DNA of 36,008 bases from Candidatus Gastranaerophilales bacterium (GCA_947624645.1 CANQLG010000017.1:1-36008), one strand, 5' to 3'. Counted from the first letter of the stretch, positions 4,098 to 34,077 are shown. Made by a program: numbers and translations. Notes: generated by a model from the letters alone, not told the origin.

Positions 4098-5165
4098 ATG
4101 AGTTATAAATATGACTTTTGCCCTCTGCCATTTTCTGAAATGGAAATAGTAAGAGACGGGAATATATATTTATGTTGTCCGAGCTGGAATAATTTTTATT
4201 CTATCGGAAATATCTATACTCATAGTCTGGAAGAAATATGGAACTCTACCGAAGCAATTGAGTTCAGAAAAAAAATATTAAATAATGATTATTCATTATG
4301 CAGAATAGATAAATGCTGTTTATTACACAATAGAAATTTTTTCTCTGATTTTAAAATAGATACACCGCCCAAAGACGGACATCTTGATACAATGCCAATG
4401 CTGGTTAAATTCGGCTACGATTATGAATGTAATATAGCCTGCAAAATATGCAGAGATAAAGTAAAAAGATTATCCGATGAAGAATTAAAAATATTAGATG
4501 ATAAAATAGAATCTTTTTTCCTTCCGTTGTTAAAGACCGCAAAAATTCTTGTTATTAATACCCATGGTGATCCTTTCGGTTCAAGACACAGCTGCAAATT
4601 AATACAAAGAGCAATCGAAACATATCCGGATTTGAAATTTGATTTTACAACAAATGGTCTTTTATGCAACGAAGGAACATTTAAAAGATTAAATATCACT
4701 CCTGAAAAAATAGATAAAATAAGAGTTTCAATCCATGCTGCGACAGCTAAAACATACGGTAAAATGGTTACTCATGGTGAATTGATGTTTGATAAATTAA
4801 TGGAAAATATGCAATATTTATCTGAATTAAAAAAGGAACACCATTTTACATTTTTGATGAATTTTGTAGTTACTTCGTTAAATTACAAGGAAATGCCCGC
4901 TTTTGTTGATATGGCAGAAAAATATAATGCATATCCTATTTTTTGGGAATATAAAGAAGATAGTGTAGGTTATAACGCTCATTTAGAAAATTTATCAATT
5001 ACAGATCCAAAACATAAAGAACATAACGAACTCATTAAAGTTTTAAAACATCCTAATATGTATAAACACAATGACAATTTGTATCCCATTTTACTTGAGA
5101 TTCAAAATAAACCTGTTGAAACTTTATTGGATAAATTATTAAACAAATTTAAGGGGAAGAAATAA
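4098..5165 (+). CDS. Radical-SAM protein with N-terminal SPASM-like domain (A1)
   Basis: A 355-residue protein with two iron-sulfur regions. The radical-SAM cluster motif is C111-NIA-C115-KI-C118, which would bind the SAM-cleaving [4Fe-4S] cluster. A GGEP-like element appears as HGDPFGS. In front of it, residues 8-74 look like a SPASM auxiliary-cluster domain: C8, the C26-C27 pair, YSIGNIY, an EIWNS tryptophan segment, then C68 and C73. In most SPASM enzymes this domain follows the radical-SAM core, so the order is permuted. It is closely similar to the protein at 8205 (A2). The next gene begins two bases after its stop. The substrate is unknown; peptide modification is one possibility. Confidence 0.85.
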   Translation: MSYKYDFCPLPFSEMEIVRDGNIYLCCPSWNNFYSIGNIYTHSLEEIWNSTEAIEFRKKILNNDYSLCRIDKCCLLHNRNFFSDFKIDTPPKDGHLDTMPMLVKFGYDYECNIACKICRDKVKRLSDEELKILDDKIESFFLPLLKTAKILVINTHGDPFGSRHSCKLIQRAIETYPDLKFDFTTNGLLCNEGTFKRLNITPEKIDKIRVSIHAATAKTYGKMVTHGELMFDKLMENMQYLSELKKEHHFTFLMNFVVTSLNYKEMPAFVDMAEKYNAYPIFWEYKEDSVGYNAHLENLSITDPKHKEHNELIKVLKHPNMYKHNDNLYPILLEIQNKPVETLLDKLLNKFKGKK

Positions 5166-5167
5166 AG

Positions 5168-6142
5168 ATGTTTTGCTCACAGCCTTTTAACAGAATTGAA
5201 ATTTTTGCGAACGGAAATGTTTTTACCTGCTGTCCCGAATATATTAATAATTATTCGATTGGTAATATATATGAAACTCCGTTTAAAGATATATGGAACG
5301 GTGAAAGAGCAAAATTAATAAGAGAAAAAATACTAAATGGCGATTATACAATATGTAATAATATATGTAACCTAAAAAATAATAATTGTACAAATGAAAA
5401 ATATTTTTCCGAAACGGTAGAAGAATATCCCTCGGAAGTATCAATAAGTTCTGACTGTACCTGTAATGTAAGATGCCGAATATGCAGGGATGAATATAAA
5501 CATTCCACATATAACAAAGAAGATTTAGAAGAAGAAATAAACAAAATATGGATTCCGATATTCAAAAATGCTAAAATACTCAAGTTTGGTATAAGCGGTG
5601 AGCCGTTTGCAAGTTTAAAAGAAAAAATGATAATAAAAAAGGCTCAAGAAGTATATCCTGATATAAAATTTCATTTTCATACAAACGGAATCTTAGGTAA
5701 TGAAAAATTACTTAAAGAACTAAATGTATATAATAAAACAGAAATAATGACAGTATCGCTGCATTCTGCAACCAGATGGACATACAATAGAGTAGTTGTA
5801 GGCGGTAATTGGGATAAGGTATTATCTAACTTAAAATTATACTCACAAATGAAAAAAGATAACCTATTACACCAATTCAGAATGATATTTGTTGTATATT
5901 CAGAAAATTATAAAGATATTCCCAAATTTGTAAAGCTGGCAAAAAAATATAATGCGACAGCTGAATTTTGGGCATTAATGAAAAATGATTTTAATGAAAT
6001 AGGAAGAAATTTTGATAAATATTCCATTATTAATGAAAATCATAAATATCATAAAAATCTTATTAAGATTCTAAAAGACCCGATTTTACAAAGCGAAAAC
6101 GTAGTTTTATATCCTGTATTAAAACAATTAATACAGAAATAA
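5168..6142 (+). CDS. Radical-SAM protein with N-terminal SPASM-like domain (B1)
   Basis: A 324-residue protein of the same build as its upstream neighbour: an N-terminal auxiliary-cluster region (C3, C21-C22, C63, C67, with YSIGNIY and DIWNG between) followed by the radical-SAM triad CNVRCRIC near residue 100 and a GEPFAS element. It belongs to a second subgroup shared with the gene at 7227; both contain FHFHTNGIL, MTVSLHSAT and a GRNFDKYSI or GKNFDKYSI element near the C-terminus. The ATG follows GGGGAAG, and only two bases separate it from A1, so the two are one transcript. The stop is three bases from that of the convergent gene C. The substrate is unknown. Confidence 0.85.
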   Translation: MFCSQPFNRIEIFANGNVFTCCPEYINNYSIGNIYETPFKDIWNGERAKLIREKILNGDYTICNNICNLKNNNCTNEKYFSETVEEYPSEVSISSDCTCNVRCRICRDEYKHSTYNKEDLEEEINKIWIPIFKNAKILKFGISGEPFASLKEKMIIKKAQEVYPDIKFHFHTNGILGNEKLLKELNVYNKTEIMTVSLHSATRWTYNRVVVGGNWDKVLSNLKLYSQMKKDNLLHQFRMIFVVYSENYKDIPKFVKLAKKYNATAEFWALMKNDFNEIGRNFDKYSIINENHKYHKNLIKILKDPILQSENVVLYPVLKQLIQK

Positions 6143-6144
6143 AA

Positions 6145-7164
6145 TTAATAACCGTCAGGGGTTCTGCCCTGTTCAAAAACACGTTTTGAAAATTCCCAAT
6201 AATGAGTTTTTATACCGAGTTCTTTTGTTCTTTTTTCAAAATAATTATATATATCATAATAATGTTTAGGTACATTCGGGTCATAGTGATGCCATTCAGG
6301 GAAAAATCGTTTAAAATTAATATCCATTTTGGCGTTTTTAATGCCTATATCAGAAATTACGTGAAGCCACTTTTCAACTTCTTCAATTGAATCATTTAAT
6401 CCGTCAAGAATAATATATTTAGCTATCAAAGCATCAGGAGCCTTTTTGGAACAACTGAGATACCGTTTTATATTGGCAACAACACTGTCAAAAGCATCTA
6501 TTCTTTTAATTTTTTTATATAATTCCTTTGAACCGCAATCAAGTGAAAAATCAAAATCAACACAAGGTGCTTCTTTTAAAGCACGTTCTATTCCCTCAGA
6601 ATAGAAAATGCAAGATGAATGGAATGACATCCGTCCCACACCATAATCAAGACAAAGATTGATAATATCTTCCGCCTCATCAAGCACGGTCAAATCACCA
6701 CCGACTAGTTCTATATGAGCATTTTTTGATATTTTTTTCTTTTTATATAACTCTTTTAGGTATCCTAAAACAGAATAATATTTACCCGCACTTTTATCCG
6801 TTTGCAAAAAATCCGCATGTGAACTCAAAACACAATAAACGCATCCGCAATTACATTGATCCCAATAATTTAAATATATTTCATCTATTAAAGAACTATC
6901 TGCCCATTTCTTTTTTTGTAAATCAATACACCCTTTGCAATTTTCGGGAACAATACCTTTTTTACAATCATTTATAATATTTTTTCTGGTATGTTCAATT
7001 TTTTTCCAATCGATTTTCCCACCCTTAAAATTATCATAAAAAATAACTCCGAGTTTGTTTGAACAGCACGTTGCAACGCTGTCATGCATAAAAGTAACCC
7101 CGCCTTGCAAAAACCTGCAAGATTCATATTCTTTTTCATTATTTTTTTTGAAAAATTCAAACAT
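6145..7164 (-). CDS. Radical-SAM protein with N-terminal cysteine domain (C)
   Basis: A 339-residue protein, a more distant relative of the four genes around it. An N-terminal cysteine region (C16, the C33-C34 pair, and three cysteines in NDCKKGIVPENCKGC) precedes the radical-SAM triad CNCGCVYC, followed by a GGDLT motif in the GGEP position and a FSLDCGSKELY segment. The start has GAGAGGG six bases upstream of the ATG. It lies reversed between the B1 and B2 genes, with a 62-base divergent promoter region shared with B2. The same permuted layout suggests related chemistry on another substrate or another step; this is inference. Confidence 0.82.
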   Translation of the reverse strand: MFEFFKKNNEKEYESCRFLQGGVTFMHDSVATCCSNKLGVIFYDNFKGGKIDWKKIEHTRKNIINDCKKGIVPENCKGCIDLQKKKWADSSLIDEIYLNYWDQCNCGCVYCVLSSHADFLQTDKSAGKYYSVLGYLKELYKKKKISKNAHIELVGGDLTVLDEAEDIINLCLDYGVGRMSFHSSCIFYSEGIERALKEAPCVDFDFSLDCGSKELYKKIKRIDAFDSVVANIKRYLSCSKKAPDALIAKYIILDGLNDSIEEVEKWLHVISDIGIKNAKMDINFKRFFPEWHHYDPNVPKHYYDIYNYFEKRTKELGIKTHYWEFSKRVFEQGRTPDGY

Positions 7165-7226
7165 TTATGCCCTCTCTTGATAAAAGATTAACATAAATGA
7201 TAATATAAAAAAATAAGGAGTTTAAA

Positions 7227-8186
7227 TTGTTTTGTAATCAACCTTTTAACAGAATAGAAATATATGAAAACGGAGATGTATATAATTGCTGCCCGCCTTT
7301 TATCAATAATTATTCCATCGGAAATATTTTTCAAACTCCGTTTGACGAAATATGGAACGGAGAAAAATCAAAACTGTTGAGAAGAAAGATCCTTAATGGA
7401 GATTTTTCTCAATGCGCAGATATTTGCAACAAAAAAAACGGTAATGATTATATTGACAATTGTTTTGGAGAAACAATAACAAAATACCCCGAAGAAATTT
7501 CAGTCAGTTCAGATAACACCTGTAATGTCAAATGCAAAATATGCAGGGATGAAAACTTTCATACCACATTCAATAAAGATACGCTGGAAAATGAAATAGA
7601 GACCATCTGGCTTCCGATATTTAAAGATGCAAAACTGCTAAGGTTCGGATGCAGCGGAGAACCTTTTGCCAGTTATAAAGAAATGCTTTTAATCAAAAAA
7701 GCTTCTCAAAAATATCCGAATTTAAAATTTCACTTTCATACAAACGGAATTTTGGCAGATGAAGCTTTATTAAGAAATTTAAACGTTTTTGATAAAATCG
7801 ATACAATGACGGTTTCACTTCATAGTGCAACATTTTGGACATATAATAAAATCGTAAGAAATGGTAATTGGCATAAGGTTATGTCAAATTTAAAATTATA
7901 CTCCTCAATGAAACTTAAAAAATTTAGAATGATTTTTTGTGTATATTCGGATAATTATAAAGAAATGCCTTCTTTTATAAAACTTACGAAAAAATTCAAT
8001 GCGATAGCCGAATTTTGGGCACTTAGACCGAATAATGCGTGCGAAGTAGGCAAAAATTTTGATAAATATTCAATAATTAACCCTAACCACAAATATCATA
8101 AAAACCTGATTAAAATATTACAGAATCCGATTTTTAATGATGAAAACGTCATTTTATACCCGGAACTGAAAAACCTGATACAATAA
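7227..8186 (+). CDS. Radical-SAM protein with N-terminal SPASM-like domain (B2)
   Basis: A 319-residue paralogue of B1 (5168). The N-terminal region has C3, a CC pair at 21-22, YSIGNIF and EIWNG, and two further cysteines near 63-67; the radical-SAM triad is CNVKCKIC and the GGEP-like element GEPFAS. Translation starts at TTG: an AAGGAG sits six bases before TTG 7227, and the next residues align with the B1 start. It is followed 18 bases later by A2, repeating the A/B pair found at 4098-6142 but in opposite order. The substrate is unknown. Confidence 0.85.
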   Translation: MFCNQPFNRIEIYENGDVYNCCPPFINNYSIGNIFQTPFDEIWNGEKSKLLRRKILNGDFSQCADICNKKNGNDYIDNCFGETITKYPEEISVSSDNTCNVKCKICRDENFHTTFNKDTLENEIETIWLPIFKDAKLLRFGCSGEPFASYKEMLLIKKASQKYPNLKFHFHTNGILADEALLRNLNVFDKIDTMTVSLHSATFWTYNKIVRNGNWHKVMSNLKLYSSMKLKKFRMIFCVYSDNYKEMPSFIKLTKKFNAIAEFWALRPNNACEVGKNFDKYSIINPNHKYHKNLIKILQNPIFNDENVILYPELKNLIQ

Positions 8187-8204
8187 ATTTGAGGAAATAA
8201 TAAA

Positions 8205-9203
8205 GTGGAAAATAATAAATTTTGTACAAGACCGTTTGAAGAATTGGAAATACACAATACAGGTGAAGTTTATGCTTGCTGCCCAAATTGGAATAAATTT
8301 TATTCAATAGGTAATATTTTTACGGACTCTTTTGAAAATGTATGGAACTCGGATAAAGCAATAGAGTTAAGAAAACGAATATTAAATTTTGATTATTCTC
8401 TTTGTGACAAAGAAGGATGCGCATATTTAAAGCAAAATTTTTTCCCTTCAAAGTATGAGCTTAATTGTACACCGGTAATGAATAATTATCCGTTAACAGT
8501 AAAATTTGTATATGACTATGAATGTAATATTGCCTGTAAAATATGCAGGGACAGAATGAAAAGGCTTTCGGATGAAGAGTTAAATCTTTTAAATTCCAAA
8601 ATTGATACATTTTTTCTTCCAATGCTAAAAAATGCAAAAGTATTAATAATTAATGCCTATGGAGATCCGTTTGGGTCAAGACATTCAAGACTGGTTGTAC
8701 AAAAAGCGGCAAAAATGTATCCTGACTTAAAATTTGATTTCCACACAAACGGGATTTTATGTGATGAAACTCATTTTAAAAATATGAATATTACTCCTGA
8801 CAAAATAGAAAAAATAAGAATATCTATACACGCTGCAACAGCAAAAACATACGGGAAAATCGTTCCAAATGGTGAAATATATTTCCCTAAAATTATTGAG
8901 AACCTGAAGTATCTTCAAAACCTAAGACAAACAAATAATTTCCCGGTATACATACATTTTGTTGTGTGTGCTGATAACTTTGAAGAAATACCTGCATTTA
9001 TAGATATAGCGGAAGAAGTTGGGGCAGTTCCGCATTTTTGGGAATACAGGCAGGAAAATTGTGCTTGGCAAAACCCTGAAAATCTCTATGTAAGCCGTAA
9101 AGACCATCCGCTTCATCAAAAACTCGTTAAGGTGCTTCAGCACCCTAACGTAAAAAGATATAAAGATAACTTTTCTCCCGTTCTTTATGATGAAATTATT
9201 TAA
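8205..9203 (+). CDS. Radical-SAM protein with N-terminal SPASM-like domain (A2)
   Basis: A 332-residue paralogue of A1 (4098). The N-terminus has FCTRPFEELEI, ACCPNW and FYSIGNIF, then two cysteines in SLCDKEGC; the core triad is CNIACKIC, with YGDPFGSRHS as the GGEP-like element and RISIHAATAKTYGK shared almost exactly with A1. Translation probably begins at GTG 8205 after GAGGA. It lacks the basic C-terminal tail of A1. Its 3' end overlaps the convergent SIMPL gene by eight bases. The substrate is unknown. Confidence 0.85.
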   Translation: MENNKFCTRPFEELEIHNTGEVYACCPNWNKFYSIGNIFTDSFENVWNSDKAIELRKRILNFDYSLCDKEGCAYLKQNFFPSKYELNCTPVMNNYPLTVKFVYDYECNIACKICRDRMKRLSDEELNLLNSKIDTFFLPMLKNAKVLIINAYGDPFGSRHSRLVVQKAAKMYPDLKFDFHTNGILCDETHFKNMNITPDKIEKIRISIHAATAKTYGKIVPNGEIYFPKIIENLKYLQNLRQTNNFPVYIHFVVCADNFEEIPAFIDIAEEVGAVPHFWEYRQENCAWQNPENLYVSRKDHPLHQKLVKVLQHPNVKRYKDNFSPVLYDEII

Positions 9204-14062: not shown

Positions 14063-15874
14063 TTACTCCAATTTAAAATCACATACTTGTTTAAGGTCGT
14101 ATCTGCATAAATATAAAAATAATATTTCTCTGCTTATTAAATGAAAAGATAAAACATTACCGTATGCCTCATAAGCACGTTTTGTACACAAATTAATAAC
14201 TTCATCAAGCTCTTTTTTTGTCATTCCGACAGCTTCATAATTATAAGTGGGTGAAAATTCTTCAACTTGTCTCGGTTCTCCGACTACACCGTATTTTTCG
14301 GGAGTTTCTCTCAGTTTGGTGTGTTTTCCCATAGTAAACACACTTTTCCCGTATGAATGAATTATATCGGTATTAGCACAAATCATATCAATAGTTTCGA
14401 TAGCTTCTTGCTTAGTTTCCGCAGGAAACCCGAAAAAGATAAAAGCAAAATTATAGATTCCGCACTCGCTTGCATCACGCATAATATTTAATCTGTTATC
14501 AATATCAATACCTTTATTAATAAGCTTCATAATCCTTTTTGAGCCAGATTCAAACCCCCATAAAATCATTCTGAGCCCACTTTTTTGCGCAAGATTGAGT
14601 ACTTCTTTGGTAAAACCGTTCTCAATACGGGCATCACAAAAATAATTAATATCTAAACCCTCTTTTATTATTCTTTTAGACATTTCCTCCATATATGCAG
14701 GACTTATTGCTTCATCTATAAATTCAAATTTAGAAATATTGTATTTTTCTTTAAAAGTTTTTATTTCTTTAATAAGTTTATCTATACTTTTAACATTATA
14801 ATAAAGCCCAAAATCATGATCACAAAAACTGCATTTCCTCCAGTAACAGCCCCTTGAAGCAGGGAACGGCATAACTATTTCGGGGGCAAAATATGCTTTT
14901 AAATCATAGCCGTCTAAGCTTGGACATTTTAAATCATTTAATTTTTTAGGTTCTATAACTTCGGTAGAACAAACTTTATTATCCTTTAAATAATATAAAT
15001 TCGGCACTTTTTCAATCGGAATTTCTCCATTCACATAACGGGAAAGCTCAATAACAGGTATTTCACCCTCCATTACCGTTAATGCATCACAGAATAATTC
15101 AAAAAATTCAGGATATTTTTCAATTGAATCTGCCACCCTGCCAAAATGATTTCCGCCAATACTGATAAAAGAATCCGTTTCTTTTTTTAATATATTTGCA
15201 AGAGTTAATCCCGCAATTATTTGGCTTGAAGAATTAATAGATATACCTATATGTTTAGCATCTTGTTCTTTTATTTTCTCCAATACCGAATAAAAATAAT
15301 CCGTATAAATATTGGTGTTTTTATCAAAAATATAATATTTTATACAATCATAATTTAATTTTAAAAGTTTATTTGTATACGCCGAAAATCCTATTTGAGT
15401 GGGGTAAAACGGCATAGAACAAATTTCAAGTGCCATATTTATATTTTTTAGTGCAGATAAAAATAATTTGGGATTATAATAATAATCCGCAGTTTTAAAA
15501 ATTTGCACCGATTTTTCAATCATAAGGGAAACAGCATTTAATGAAGATGAATATTTCTTCAAAAAACTGTCAATCATTGAAGCTTTAGCTATTTCATTTT
15601 GCTGCCAAAATTCATATTCATTTATATTTTTATTTTTAACATAATATTTTTTAATTTTTTCTTTTAGAATAGGGAGCATTGCTTTAGCTTTATCAATAGA
15701 TTCATTGACATAATCGGATGTCAAAATCTTATTATAAAAATCAACATTTAAATCTAATCCTGATGCAGTCAAACCTGTGTCCTCATATTGCCCTAATAGT
15801 GTAGGAAGAGCAAAATGAGGACTAACCGGCATCCATTGCGGCGGGAATATTAATAATGTCTTATTATTTTTCAT
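14063..15874 (-). CDS. B12-binding-type radical-SAM protein
   Basis: A 603-residue protein of the COG1032 type. Residues 1-50 (LLIFPPQWMPVSPHFALPTL) and about 205-300 (HIGISINSSSQII, ISIGGNHFG) resemble the cobalamin-binding Rossmann half; no DxHxxG base-off motif is seen. The radical-SAM core starts near 335 with PASRGCYWRKCSFC. The cysteines are C343, C348 and C351, a CX4CX2C spacing in place of the usual CX3CX2C. Later core elements FIDEAIS, LWGFESGS and FFGFPAETKQEA are typical. Such enzymes methylate or rearrange unactivated carbons on varied substrates; the target here is unknown. An EF-hand protein gene lies 43 bases upstream. Confidence 0.85.
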   Translation of the reverse strand: MKNNKTLLIFPPQWMPVSPHFALPTLLGQYEDTGLTASGLDLNVDFYNKILTSDYVNESIDKAKAMLPILKEKIKKYYVKNKNINEYEFWQQNEIAKASMIDSFLKKYSSSLNAVSLMIEKSVQIFKTADYYYNPKLFLSALKNINMALEICSMPFYPTQIGFSAYTNKLLKLNYDCIKYYIFDKNTNIYTDYFYSVLEKIKEQDAKHIGISINSSSQIIAGLTLANILKKETDSFISIGGNHFGRVADSIEKYPEFFELFCDALTVMEGEIPVIELSRYVNGEIPIEKVPNLYYLKDNKVCSTEVIEPKKLNDLKCPSLDGYDLKAYFAPEIVMPFPASRGCYWRKCSFCDHDFGLYYNVKSIDKLIKEIKTFKEKYNISKFEFIDEAISPAYMEEMSKRIIKEGLDINYFCDARIENGFTKEVLNLAQKSGLRMILWGFESGSKRIMKLINKGIDIDNRLNIMRDASECGIYNFAFIFFGFPAETKQEAIETIDMICANTDIIHSYGKSVFTMGKHTKLRETPEKYGVVGEPRQVEEFSPTYNYEAVGMTKKELDEVINLCTKRAYEAYGNVLSFHLISREILFLYLCRYDLKQVCDFKLE

Positions 15875-18780: not shown

Positions 18781-19511
18781 TTAATAAGATAATGCAGCGC
18801 CTATTGCCGAAAAATATTGTCCTTCCATCCTATTAATAAATGTTTTTTGAAGAGCAAGTTTTGCGAAATCTGTTATTCCCTTTATCTGTGACAATCCTCC
18901 TGATAAAAGAATTTCATCCCCATTCACTTTTCCTATTAAGGGCATAACTTTTTTTAATATTTGCCAAATAACTGCGTCGATTATTACCCCCCCCGTGAGC
19001 TTTTTGAAATTAATTCCACTATTTCACTCTGTGCAAAAACAGCACATACTGAAGAAAGATGAATCTCCGGTTCTTTTTTATCAGTTAAATCAATTGAAGC
19101 AAAATCTTCTTGAACCATATTAAGGACATTTGAAAGAAATATTCCGCTGCCTGCGGCACATTTGTCATTGACAAAAAACTCTTTTAATTGACCGTTTTTT
19201 TGGCGTATTATCTTAGTATCCTGTCCGCCGATATCAAATACAAGCTCACATTCCGGACAAATGAAATTTGCGCCTTTTGCAAGTGCTATTAACTCGTTTA
19301 TACATTTTACGGATTTAATATTTTCTTTCCCGTATCCGCATGAAACTACCTTCGCGTCCGGATATTCTGACAGAAGTTCCGAAACTTTTTTTTCAAAATA
19401 TTCTTTTTGATTTATGGGAGTTTTTTCGCTAAAAAGCTTTTCTATTTGCTTATCTTTCATAATACAGAACTTTGTATAAGTAGAACCTATATCCGCACCT
19501 ATTGAGTACAT
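18781..19511 (-). pseudogene. BadF/HgdC-type dehydratase activator ATPase, frameshifted at G8
   Basis: This is the ATP-dependent one-electron donor that activates 2-hydroxyacyl-CoA dehydratases. The 5' part (18984-19511, 175 residues) has GADIGSTYTK, DIGGQDTK, the NDKCAAGSG cysteine and SSVCAVFAQSE cysteine that hold the dimer-bridging [4Fe-4S] cluster. It then stops just after a G8 tract at 18987-18994. The missing C-terminus continues in another frame: VIIDAVIWQILKKV, ILLSGGLSQIKG and AIGAALSY, ending at 18781. One extra G (G9) would restore a 243-residue protein of nearly normal length. It overlaps the upstream dehydratase gene by 13 bases. It could be a phase-off allele, a real mutation or a sequencing error. 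Confidence 0.85.
18987..18994 (-). repeat. G8 homopolymer causing the activator frameshift
   Basis: Eight consecutive C on the plus strand, directly before the premature TAA of the activator gene. The two halves of the protein join in frame if the tract is nine G, or seven G minus one further base (net change of +1 modulo 3). Confidence 0.85.
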
Positions 19512-20647
19512 AACGTATCCTTTAGCAAATCTATCTGCTTTTTTGTTTTTTCCAAAGAAAGAAAATTGCGGTCTATCATGTCAATTTCAAGCTCAGCCTG
19601 AGGTATATTAATATCCTTTGCAGATACGAAATCACACTTGCAGCTTTTATTGTGAAGAGTTACAGAACAAAAAGCTTCAGAATCCTTTATTTGCTTTGTT
19701 AATCTTTCTGTTCTGTTTTTTTGAGATAAATTTAAGAAAGTATAGTTATATGCAGAAAACAACTTTTCAAAAGCATTACTTCCGCTATAATCAAGGCTCC
19801 ACCAAGTTATATAGTTTGAACCGCAAATTCTGAAATCATCTAAAAACTCTGAAAGATATCTTTTAGGGTGATACCATAAAGGGTAGCCCAGCCAAAATAT
19901 CGGGATTAAGTTTTTATCAGCATCGGGTAACTCTTTCATTTCTTCATAAAGAGCTTGATATAGCTCAATAGTACCTAAATTGCATCTTTGAGTAATAAGA
20001 TATGAAATATAATCAAAAATAGCAGTCGGTTTAATTTCTTTTTTTGTCAGTGCCTGTGCAACCTTGTTCCACCAATAAACACTTTCAGTACTATTTTGTA
20101 TATTTTTCTCAAGCAAATTTATATCAAACTTATTACCTGTTAAATTTTCCAGCCGGACTATTAAATCTTTATGTTGTTCGGTTACATATTTGTATGCCTG
20201 TTGCTTATCTGCCGACTCACCGGGATAGTCAATAACTATGAGCGGAACATTAAACCTTTGTGCAAGTATGTTCCACCAGTTGGGAAGTGTGTTGCATTGA
20301 TTGTTTGTTGCAATGAGTATATCAGGTTTTGGAGGGATGCCTCTGGGACCTTCTTCAAGTTCCAAACAGCCTTCTAAACAGCAAGAATATGAACAACAGT
20401 CACGACTTAAGTTACATTGCTCACTTTTTTCCAAAAAAGATTGTTCCTTATTACTTGCGGCTATCACAGCTGCATAGCTTTCAGGGTAATAATAATACAT
20501 GCCAAGAGTCTCCAGAATTTCAACGGGAGTAAAAGCCGTAACCCAAGCAACTTTTTTGTCCGGAGCAGCTCCTCTGGCATATTTTGAAAAATATTTATAA
20601 TATTCCCTCATTAAAGTCGACTGAAGTTTTATTGCAGATTCAACCAT
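19499..20647 (-). CDS. 2-hydroxyacyl-CoA dehydratase-type subunit (HgdB/BcrC-like), large
   Basis: A 382-residue member of COG1775, the family of 2-hydroxyacyl-CoA dehydratase, benzoyl-CoA reductase and double-cubane-cluster subunits. Typical elements are GAAPDKKVAWVTAFTPVEIL at 26-45 (the family reads ...wt.a.vP.Ell.A.G), the cysteine-rich SRDCCSYSCCLEGC near 80-93, ATNNQCNTLPNWW near 113-125, and VPLIVIDYPGE near 134-144. Cysteines in these places bind a [4Fe-4S] cluster. The start codon overlaps no other gene and follows the smaller subunit by 15 bases. The activator gene overlaps its 3' end. No CoA transferase or dehydrogenase gene is near, so the substrate is open. Confidence 0.85.
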   Translation of the reverse strand: MVESAIKLQSTLMREYYKYFSKYARGAAPDKKVAWVTAFTPVEILETLGMYYYYPESYAAVIAASNKEQSFLEKSEQCNLSRDCCSYSCCLEGCLELEEGPRGIPPKPDILIATNNQCNTLPNWWNILAQRFNVPLIVIDYPGESADKQQAYKYVTEQHKDLIVRLENLTGNKFDINLLEKNIQNSTESVYWWNKVAQALTKKEIKPTAIFDYISYLITQRCNLGTIELYQALYEEMKELPDADKNLIPIFWLGYPLWYHPKRYLSEFLDDFRICGSNYITWWSLDYSGSNAFEKLFSAYNYTFLNLSQKNRTERLTKQIKDSEAFCSVTLHNKSCKCDFVSAKDINIPQAELEIDMIDRNFLSLEKTKKQIDLLKDTLCTQ

Positions 20648-20662
20648 TGTGTTTGCACTCCT

Positions 20663-21601
20663 TTATATCATATCCGCAAAGGCTTCTAATGCAAGTTCAA
20701 ACTTCTTAGAGCCTTCAGAATTTGTCAACGAAATTTTTATTGACTTTATCCCCTCTGAATTAAGCTTTTTTTCATAAACCGAATAAAGATAATCATAAGC
20801 CTCGCAGTATTTTTGAGTGAGAAAAATTACACCCTGCGCTTTTTTACTTTTTATCTCGTTTATATCGTCTTTAATTATCTCACTAAAATTATTTTGAGTC
20901 GGAGATAGCCTTGATGATAATATATTTTTAGCAATATTTATATATATATCACCGGCAATCTCGCAAGGCTTTCGATTTGCCAGCCGTCCGGATTCAGGTA
21001 AATTATCCCCGACAACTTTAAACCCTGAATTTTCAATTACATTAAGAACATTCTCTGAAGTTAAAAATGAACCTATAAGAAATACTCTTTTGCCATCAGA
21101 TTTTTTTTCTTTTACTTGGGGAGTTGATTGTTCCATTAAAGGTTTTGTAAGCATTTTATGTATACCTTGAAGATAATCATAATATGAAATCATTTCAAGG
21201 TTTTCGTAAAGCATTTTGAGTTCTTTATTTCGTCTGTTTATAGTTTCAATTCTATCCGCAATATCAGTTATTTCAAATCCGTAATGAGCTTCTATTGCCT
21301 GTTTATACGACTTAATTTGATTCGCAAAATAATCAATTGCATATTCGTCTATTCTGGCAGGAACAGGCAATTGATAAACAAATTTATCCGTTTCTCCAAG
21401 ATAACTTTTAATAATTCTCGTACTGTCACATGATTTCGGAAACACTGCCCCATCAACAGAATTATCATATAACACCTGAGAAATATAATCCGATGCATAT
21501 TGGCAATAATGAGATATTGATATATTCCCGGAATACCCTGTAAATCGAACCGTATCACATATTTGTTCGGGAATAAAGCCCGACAAAGACAGTATATTCA
21601 T
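20663..21601 (-). CDS. 2-hydroxyacyl-CoA dehydratase-type subunit, small
   Basis: A 312-residue second COG1775-like subunit. The segment DGAVFPKSCDSTRIIKSYL near residues 50-68 matches the conserved cysteine region of HgdB-type subunits, and LPVPARIDEYAIDYFANQI resembles the following family segment. The C-terminal half begins with KRVFLIGSFLTSENVLNVIE (a family glycine-rich strand). It is shorter than the usual 370-430 residues. GAGAGGG precedes the ATG. It is the first gene of a minus-strand operon: small subunit, large subunit, activator, membrane protein. Confidence 0.8.
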   Translation of the reverse strand: MNILSLSGFIPEQICDTVRFTGYSGNISISHYCQYASDYISQVLYDNSVDGAVFPKSCDSTRIIKSYLGETDKFVYQLPVPARIDEYAIDYFANQIKSYKQAIEAHYGFEITDIADRIETINRRNKELKMLYENLEMISYYDYLQGIHKMLTKPLMEQSTPQVKEKKSDGKRVFLIGSFLTSENVLNVIENSGFKVVGDNLPESGRLANRKPCEIAGDIYINIAKNILSSRLSPTQNNFSEIIKDDINEIKSKKAQGVIFLTQKYCEAYDYLYSVYEKKLNSEGIKSIKISLTNSEGSKKFELALEAFADMI

Positions 21602-31836: not shown

Positions 31837-34077
31837 TTATTCATATTCACCAAATCTATACTGATCATATACCCCATTGACACCTAAATCGTTTAATATT
31901 TTGAAGTAGTCCTCTTGTATATCAATCCATTCATTGTCAATGCACTCTCTTAAAGATAATTCATCTTGTCCTGAAAATTCTTTAAACCTCATATCCATTA
32001 CTGCTAATACACTATCGTATTCATGATTAACTATTGGTCCAGATTCAGGGTGAACATAATTATATTCTATAGAAAAAACTCCATTAGTGAAATTATATAA
32101 AGTACCCGTTGTTCCTGCAGTAGCATGATAAAATTCTCTGCACAATATTTCCATAGAGTTTATTTGATAATTATCAACAATTATATGATTTTTCCCATCA
32201 TGAGCATCATCAATACATAATTTAGCATCATCCATTAATATTTGTACATATTTTTGGGTTAGATCGGGGTAATTTTTTATTTCTTCCGCAAAACTTGCAT
32301 CTCCATACTTTTCAAAATATTTAGTAAATATAAGTATTTTATCTTTATTAGTTAAATCATCTGAATATAAAATCTCTTCCACAGCTTCTCTATCCAGCTT
32401 CCCAAAGGTTGTTGGTCTTGCTTCATATAGCTTAGTAGCGAATGCTTCTGCTTGATTCTCACCAATTGTCACTACTCTGTCCTGTAAATATTGTTTTTGT
32501 TCAGCAGTCAGATTTGGATCGTTTATCACCATCTCATATTTTGTATAGTCATTATTGATGTCCTCAATCATTTGATTTAAAACAACATCTGATACTCCTG
32601 AGGTTTTAGTTGCTTCCGTCGGTTCTTCAACTTCCGTAGCTTCTGCTGCCACTGATGCTTCCGTCGATTCTTCAACTTCCGTAGCTTCTTCTGCTGCCAC
32701 TGATGCTTCCGTCGATTCTTCAACTTCCGTAGCTTCTTCTGCTGCCGCTGATGCCTCCGTCGGTTCTCCAACTTCCGGGGTTTCTGCTTCTGCTTCCGCT
32801 GATGCTTCCGTCGCTTCTTCAACTTCCGTAGCTTCTGCTGCCACTGATGCTTCCGTCGATTCTTCAACTTCCGTAGCTTCTTCTGCTGCCGCTGATGCTT
32901 CCGTCGGTTCTCCAACTTCCGGGGTTTCTGCTTCTGCTGCCACTGATGCTTCCGTCGGTTCTTCAACTTCTTCTCCGGGAATAGTTATACCTCGCGCTCT
33001 TAATTCTTCTTCTATCTGCGGCCAAACCTCAGGATAATATTTCATATAATAATTAATCATTTCTTCCCCACCTTCTATACAATTTTCAACATAGCCGGCT
33101 ATATCAGGGTTTGCGATTCTGTCTACACCTGAACCTGAATTTTCGTCACTACTTGTTGATTCCGGGGTCTCACTTCCTGTTTCTGCTTCATTTGAAGCTG
33201 TCAAATGTTCCTGTATTGATTCCGGGTGAACTTTTATACCATTCCATACCGAAAACTGAGTGAATTTTATTTTGCTTCTGTCTTTTGATTCATTGATATC
33301 TCCTAATTCATCAGCTGTCAGTACTCCATCACCATTTGCATCAAGTACTTCAAATATTACATCCGCAGTATTAGTTCTAAAATCTGCTGTATTTTCATGC
33401 TCTGTCAAATAAGCCAAACCTTCACTAAATTCTTCAGGTCCGATTTCATCACCTTCAAATTCATAAACAACATTATTCATACTTACATCATAAGTAGTTA
33501 AATTACTTCTTACTTCATTGGCTGCGTTTTCTATCTTTTCCATATCTACTTGGTCATTTGCTTCAGCATAATCAACTACCTTTCTATCAAATGAACCATA
33601 ATCCGTACTTGATGTAGATTTTTTCTCCGTATCTGTATCTGAATCTTTTTCCGGTTCTTGTGTTGAATCTATCATATGTTCCGCTACTGAATCAGAATGG
33701 ACTTTTATATTACTCCATACCGAAAATTGACTAAATTTTATTTTGCTTTTGTCTTCTGATACATTCATATCTCCTAATTCATCAGCTGTCAGTACTCCAT
33801 CATCATTTGCATCAAGTACTTCAAATATTACATCCGCTGTATTATCTCTAAAATCATCTGTATTTTCATGCTCTGTCAAATAAGCCAAACCTTCACAAAA
33901 ATCTGCCTGAGTGATTTCATCACCAAACTCAAAGATACAGTCATTCATATCAACATCATAATCCAGACCTTCTCTTACATTTTGTGCAGCTCTTTCTATT
34001 TCACCTATATCAACTTGTTGATTACTTCTTGCATAATCAACTACTTTCTTGTCAAAATCTCCATAGCTGCCCGTCAT
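31837..34077 (-). CDS. Large EF-hand protein with duplicated modules and Thr/Glu/Ala repeat
   Basis: A 746-residue hydrophilic protein without a signal peptide or membrane segment. Two near-identical modules (about 5-139 and 159-293) each hold one perfect EF-hand loop, DANDDGVLTADE at 89-100 and DANGDGVLTADE at 247-258, and a conserved KIKFSQFSVWSNIKVH end. A linker with many Ser/Glu follows, then seven tandem 15-17-residue units (374-485) of the type TEASVAAEATEVEE. The C-terminal 250 residues form a further helical domain of unknown type. AGGAG precedes the ATG. The repeat region is acidic. A structural or surface role is likely but unproven. Confidence 0.8.
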   Translation of the reverse strand: MTGSYGDFDKKVVDYARSNQQVDIGEIERAAQNVREGLDYDVDMNDCIFEFGDEITQADFCEGLAYLTEHENTDDFRDNTADVIFEVLDANDDGVLTADELGDMNVSEDKSKIKFSQFSVWSNIKVHSDSVAEHMIDSTQEPEKDSDTDTEKKSTSSTDYGSFDRKVVDYAEANDQVDMEKIENAANEVRSNLTTYDVSMNNVVYEFEGDEIGPEEFSEGLAYLTEHENTADFRTNTADVIFEVLDANGDGVLTADELGDINESKDRSKIKFTQFSVWNGIKVHPESIQEHLTASNEAETGSETPESTSSDENSGSGVDRIANPDIAGYVENCIEGGEEMINYYMKYYPEVWPQIEEELRARGITIPGEEVEEPTEASVAAEAETPEVGEPTEASAAAEEATEVEESTEASVAAEATEVEEATEASAEAEAETPEVGEPTEASAAAEEATEVEESTEASVAAEEATEVEESTEASVAAEATEVEEPTEATKTSGVSDVVLNQMIEDINNDYTKYEMVINDPNLTAEQKQYLQDRVVTIGENQAEAFATKLYEARPTTFGKLDREAVEEILYSDDLTNKDKILIFTKYFEKYGDASFAEEIKNYPDLTQKYVQILMDDAKLCIDDAHDGKNHIIVDNYQINSMEILCREFYHATAGTTGTLYNFTNGVFSIEYNYVHPESGPIVNHEYDSVLAVMDMRFKEFSGQDELSLRECIDNEWIDIQEDYFKILNDLGVNGVYDQYRFGEYE
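32623..32958 (-). repeat. Tandem repeat of 45-51 bases, seven units
   Basis: Seven units of 45, 48 or 51 bases encode 15-17-residue blocks. Two unit types alternate: one ends ATEVEE and the other AETPEVGE, and the order suggests duplication of larger blocks of two or three units. The spacing is always a multiple of three, so the frame is kept. Such a tract can change length by recombination or slippage. Confidence 0.9.
33199..34065 (-). repeat. Direct repeat of about 405 bases (two modules)
   Basis: The stretches 33661-34065 and 33199-33603 encode similar EF-hand modules and share long identical runs, for example the one coding for FEVLDAN and GVLTADELGD. They are a tandem duplication separated by a short acidic linker. 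Confidence 0.75.

Follow-up and report, generated by a model that had tools for sequence, protein, structure and literature searches.

Radical SAM enzymes with a Twitch-type domain in front of the core in a Candidatus Gastranaerophilales genome

The five-gene cluster at positions 4098-9203

Candidatus Gastranaerophilales is a gut relative of the cyanobacteria. A stretch of 36,008 nucleotides from one of its genomes (GCA_947624645.1, CANQLG010000017.1:1-36008; the whole stretch is called the window below) was analyzed, and five adjacent open reading frames (ORFs) resembling radical S-adenosylmethionine (SAM) enzymes were found to occupy positions 4098-9203. They are designated genes A to E (Table 1). 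It is nearly certain that these proteins combine a four-cysteine domain of the Twitch type with a (beta/alpha)6 radical SAM core that follows it, and that they belong to an extensive, lineage-specific set of enzymes. An earlier note, made from the sequence of this DNA alone, had described five alike genes that each place a SPASM-like domain with YSIGNI and IWN segments before the CX3CX2C motif. This description held for A, B, D, and E, which are called type 1, but not for the middle gene C, which is on the minus strand, has neither segment, and was assigned to a different family, called type 2.

Table 1. Positions and features of the five radical SAM genes in the window
Feature	Position	Strand	Description
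Gene A	4098-5165	+	355 aa, type 1; Twitch residues 8-73 (C8, C26, C68, C73); CX3CX2C at 111-118
Gene B	5168-6142	+	324 aa, type 1; starts 2 bases past A
Gene C	6145-7164	-	339 aa, type 2 radical SAM; C16, C33, C76, C79, then CX3CX2C at 104-111
Intergenic region C/D	7165-7226	.	62 bases between divergent genes; sole gap of the cluster above 20 bases
Gene D	7227-8186	+	319 aa, type 1; TTG start
Gene E	8205-9203	+	332 aa, type 1; GTG start; CX3CX2C present, no PF04055 match, full-length match to the type-1 profile

Genes A and B probably share one operon. The gaps A/B, B/C, C/D, and D/E are 2, 2, 62, and 18 bases long, and there is therefore no space for a precursor gene inside the cluster; no plausible small ORF for a precursor peptide was found in these gaps. 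Together with the lack of a recurrent transporter family among the neighbouring genes, this bore out the statement of the earlier note that neither a precursor nor a transporter lies in or near the cluster. A search with Pfam yielded no RRE (PqqD-like) domain in any of the five proteins, and there is no defence gene within the cluster.

The domain order was analyzed with Pfam models. The SPASM model PF13186 (cut-off 21.5 bits) matched residues 3-73 of A, B, D, and E with 45.3-49.1 bits (E 7e-13 to 1e-11), and in all four proteins YSIGNI and IWN or VWN are present and CX3CX2C comes downstream of the match. A SPASM-type domain precedes the core in these four proteins, far beyond chance. Gene C had no PF13186 match up to E 0.1. 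The N-terminal position of the SPASM match, which the earlier note had proposed to verify, was confirmed for A, B, D, and E, but the radical SAM model PF04055 (cut-off 29.5 bits) scored above its cut-off only in B, C (41.9 bits), and D; A remained below it with 20.5 bits, and E gave no match. The core of E was picked up by NCBIfam radical SAM models and by the shared profile.

The Twitch-first order is already known as a category, because the NCBIfam model NF033640 (N_Twi_rSAM) describes a subfamily with an N-terminal Twitch domain ahead of the radical SAM core. A, B, D, and E have the same order, and in A, B, and D the alignment to NF033640 spans almost the entire protein. Hence, a known family with this order exists, yet the scores of the four proteins, 42.1-59.7 bits, fall well short of the 170 bits that serve as its cut-off, and gene C is not matched. 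Judged from these scores, the type-1 proteins are distant relatives of NF033640 and not members by the curated cut-off. No text on an N-terminal SPASM domain was found in open-access papers.

The front domain and its relation to BtrN

An alignment of the nine type-1 proteins of this genome revealed the invariant cysteines C8, C26, C68, and C73 in the front domain, followed by C111, C115, and C118; in an alignment of nineteen type-2 proteins, the invariant residues were C16, C33, C76, and C79, followed by C104, C108, and C111. The front domains have four conserved cysteines and do not show the full SPASM pattern CX9-15GX4C-gap-CX2CX5CX3C-gap-C, which comprises seven cysteines for two auxiliary clusters. 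The permuted SPASM-type subfamily proposed in the earlier note is retained in that the domain is of the SPASM/Twitch type and the order is swapped versus BtrN, but it has to be described as a four-cysteine Twitch, not as a seven-cysteine SPASM domain. In Twitch domains, one cysteine lies ahead of a hairpin, one behind it, and two past a helix, and in BtrN the ligation of the auxiliary cluster is complete with four cysteines (PMC6231123, PMC9012708). The succession Cys-hairpin-Cys-helix-Cys-Cys, together with six beta/alpha units, is also predicted by the AlphaFold2 models of type 1 (pLDDT 92.5, pTM 0.89) and type 2 (pLDDT 85.8, pTM 0.84).

The type-1 front-domain profile alone retrieved the auxiliary-cluster domain of BtrN from the Protein Data Bank (E 2.5e-10). 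The full-length type-1 profile matched BtrN with E 4.6e-15 in two pieces of swapped order, the front (2-81) with BtrN residues 184-261 and the core (89-209) with residues 20-140, which is direct evidence that the domain order is permuted relative to BtrN. Among solved structures, BtrN, the Twitch radical SAM dehydrogenase of 2-deoxy-scyllo-inosamine in butirosin biosynthesis, matches the type-1 sequence profile best. Both have a four-cysteine auxiliary domain of the same pattern, but it is located after the core in BtrN and before the core in the cluster enzymes. AlbA, anSME, PqqE, and SuiB also combine a related auxiliary Fe-S domain with a radical SAM core; in contrast, theirs is C-terminal, has seven cysteines and two auxiliary clusters, and is often accompanied by an RRE and a linked peptide. 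By these comparisons, the type-1 front domain is classified as a BtrN-like single-cluster Twitch domain, and, by analogy, its four cysteines are expected to hold one [4Fe-4S] cluster.

Gene C belongs, by its sequence, to a second family in which the spacing of the front cysteines is nearly that of type 1. The full-length profiles of the two types matched with 97.9% probability and with the front cysteines in register. This register, the predicted secondary structure, and the full-length match suggest a Twitch domain in type 2 as well, and this assignment is weaker than that for type 1.

Expansion in the genome and the genus

The five genes represent one portion of a 46-member expansion, which a view of the cluster alone, as in the earlier note, had missed. 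The gene counts (about 46 in all) are based on searches and on the stretches of the genome that were fetched. With a size of 2.14 Mb and a completeness of 99.8%, the genome contains 37 full-length type-2 genes and nine type-1 genes, distributed over 16 contigs, and all seven cysteines, i.e., the four of the front domain and the three of CX3CX2C that characterize the superfamily, are retained in all 46 members. Whereas 29 further genera of the family have between 13 and 48 PF04055 matches (median 20), the genome has 76 in total. A comparison with genome G128, which is from another species, yielded reciprocal best matches for 31 genes with a median identity of 73%, versus about 40% for the best paralogue. 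Therefore, the copies are old, distinct, and have been kept.

Type-2 genes were present in 27 of the 29 sampled genomes of the genus, with 11 to 42 genes each, and genomes from two neighbouring genera had 10 and 18. Most of the order is without type-2 genes, and homologues are mostly rare outside the genus. The named relatives stem from metagenome-assembled genomes of rabbit and ruminant guts, which are mostly labelled Candidatus Gastranaerophilales. Conserved neighbours, for which the earlier note had suggested a search, were found only in part: no partner is shared by the genes within the genome, but several relatives have one to five radical SAM genes at a shared chromosomal site in the vicinity of lrgAB, nusA, and a SIMPL-domain gene. 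Divergent pairs of one type-2 and one type-1 gene recur among the relatives. At L079, L084, L085, L088, L090, and L093, from several species, type-1 genes occupy a conserved site by the SIMPL-domain gene and nusA-rimP. No relative was found in viral contigs; the single relative in phages was a weak one in a Vibrio phage (24% identity), and the type-2 proteins had no match in plasmids or phages. No report of a radical SAM expansion in this lineage was found in open-access papers.

Some additional observations concern single loci. A type-1 homologue in the genome of another family (L067, 4811-5905) is split by a stop codon into 114 and 232 aa and lies near glycosyltransferase-like genes, and at L068 (6781-11094) a type-1 gene adjoins three ORFs resembling Cas9, Cas1, and Cas2 (996, 319, and 115 aa, respectively). 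The window itself encodes another radical SAM protein of 603 aa (14063-15874, minus strand), which has a front part resembling a B12-binding domain and is unrelated to types 1 and 2. It also contains, likewise on the minus strand, three neighbouring ORFs resembling 2-hydroxyacyl-CoA dehydratase subunits and an ATP-dependent activator (18984-21601) and a 746-aa ORF (31837-34077) in which EF-hand-like DANGDGVLTADELGD segments occur together with a lengthy array of E/T/A-rich repeats that are almost identical.

Possible substrates and the alternatives

Our reading is that the two-domain enzymes may be radical oxidases or epimerases that act on cell-surface sugars. As a whole, with the architecture included, this statement is tentative and is held at somewhat less than even confidence. 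The cluster bound by CX3CX2C would reduce and cleave SAM, as in the rest of the superfamily, and the resulting 5'-deoxyadenosyl radical would take a hydrogen atom from the substrate. As in BtrN, the front [4Fe-4S] cluster may then receive the substrate radical's electron, giving a net two-electron oxidation; the putative ligation by four cysteines, which is that of BtrN, suggests that the front cluster accepts an electron and does not bind the substrate. Some paralogues might be redox-neutral and catalyze an epimerization or elimination. The substrates would be sugars, either as nucleotide sugars or as glycan intermediates, a proposal that draws on the neighbourhoods and fusions of relatives and on the similarity to BtrN, DesII, and BlsE.

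Outside the genus, 10 of 66 neighbouring genes encode family-2 glycosyltransferases (GT2), and polysaccharide pyruvyl transferases, RgpF, and GT61 proteins are also encoded there. Of the type-2 homologues, one carries a fused GT2 domain (L063, 4265-6382) and another fused hexapeptide repeats (L059, 3568-5466). On a Paracoccus plasmid, a type-1 relative (28% identity, E 1e-32) adjoins two glycosyltransferase genes. The 36-kb plasmid of Brachyspira hyodysenteriae carries glycosyltransferase and rhamnose genes beside radical SAM genes (PMC4267127); its relative has the same domain order and was found as one tblastn piece (query 8-276) of 23.5% identity. Among solved folds, that of DesII, a TDP-sugar enzyme, came closest to the type-1 core (Z 15.6, 234 residues, 4.1 Å), and the sugar-acting BlsE reached Z 13.3; the identities are only 14-16%, and the match is confined to the core (model residues 82-341). 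VIA-align, with which these folds were compared, works in chain order; a permuted match to BtrN is not expected, and the absence of BtrN from its list is no evidence. Lastly, the two genomes of the genus without type-2 genes have five GT2 genes each, compared with 15-36 in the others among the 29 sampled.

Several observations weigh against an action on sugars or against the assignment of a Twitch domain to type 2. Within the genome, the genes are surrounded by unrelated housekeeping genes, no partner family is common to more than a few of the 88 neighbours, and glycosyltransferases are not in excess among them. The glycan neighbours stem from about half of the eleven loci outside the genus, and about half of these loci are not glycan loci; moreover, some of the glycan loci have similar neighbourhoods and hence are not independent. 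Viperin (Z 14.0) follows DesII closely as a match to the type-1 core, NifB also reaches about 14, and a fold shared with DesII or viperin shows no function. The link between GT2 and type-2 genes rests on two possibly related genomes and may reflect shared ancestry, and among genomes with type-2 genes there is no visible relation between the numbers of type-2 and GT2 genes. The type-2 front domain alone matches neither a solved structure nor PF13186, and its comparison with the type-1 front domain gave only 6.7% probability.

The earlier note had considered an unlinked peptide or a small molecule as substrate. Modification of peptides or proteins encoded elsewhere, by an unlinked system for ribosomally synthesized and post-translationally modified peptides (RiPPs) or another post-translational system, is the main rival and is unlikely, though far from negligible. 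Many characterized SPASM/Twitch enzymes act on peptides (PMC6231123), there are weak NCBIfam matches to peptide maturases, the type-2 model aligns to the protein- or peptide-acting enzymes Mmp10 and SuiB (Z about 14), and scattered genes without partners are compatible with protein substrates. However, the cluster has no precursor-sized gap and no RRE, none of the in-genome neighbours listed belongs to a recurrent transporter or peptidase family, and relatives elsewhere adjoin glycosyltransferase genes. A sugar, and thus a small molecule, is favoured over a peptide as the best-supported guess. A role as maturases of metalloenzymes, or in making a cofactor or a small non-sugar metabolite, is quite improbable. 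The highest NCBIfam bit scores were indeed obtained with maturases of tungsten cofactors and putative metalloenzymes (49-65 bits), but they are far under the cut-offs of 380-400 bits and the best-scoring stretch is the core only; in addition, no metalloenzyme recurs beside the genes, and 46 paralogues far exceed the apparent need of a cofactor pathway.

A non-adaptive or selfish duplication without distinct functions would be in agreement with the dispersal of many genes among housekeeping genes and with the broken homologue at L067. It is very improbable, considering the retention of the cysteines throughout the set, the conservation of the 31 orthologues, and the lack of a recurrent transposase or integrase family among the neighbours listed. 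An antiviral function as viperin-like nucleotide enzymes can hardly be credited at all: apart from the fold similarity, the PADLOC pVip models gave weak matches of up to 38.6 bits that cover only the core, but the NCBIfam viperin model NF038283 scored 19.8-29.7 bits where it matched (cut-off 180), and no defence gene lies in the cluster. Viperins are not known to carry a Twitch domain in front.

Returning to sugars as the preferred substrates, each of the about 46 paralogues might have its own substrate or position, and the set would diversify the glycans of the cell surface. In the most far-reaching version, one gut genus of Gastranaerophilales and two neighbouring genera would have a repertoire of some 10-50 distinct Twitch-first enzymes, freed from the glycan loci of their origin, that tailor surface glycans with novel oxidized or epimerized sugars, with type 2 as a new enzyme family; this picture is speculative and unlikely to hold in all its parts. 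The enzymes are a variation on a known architecture and are notable mainly for the size and the conservation of the expansion, as 46 genes of a 2.1-Mb genome fall into two related, uncharacterized radical SAM families in which the auxiliary domain is permuted. The permutation allows the direct question of whether an auxiliary cluster works alike when it is placed at the opposite chain end. If sugars are the substrates, many radical reactions would be added to carbohydrate chemistry, and the set would illustrate the way in which a gut lineage modifies its surface.

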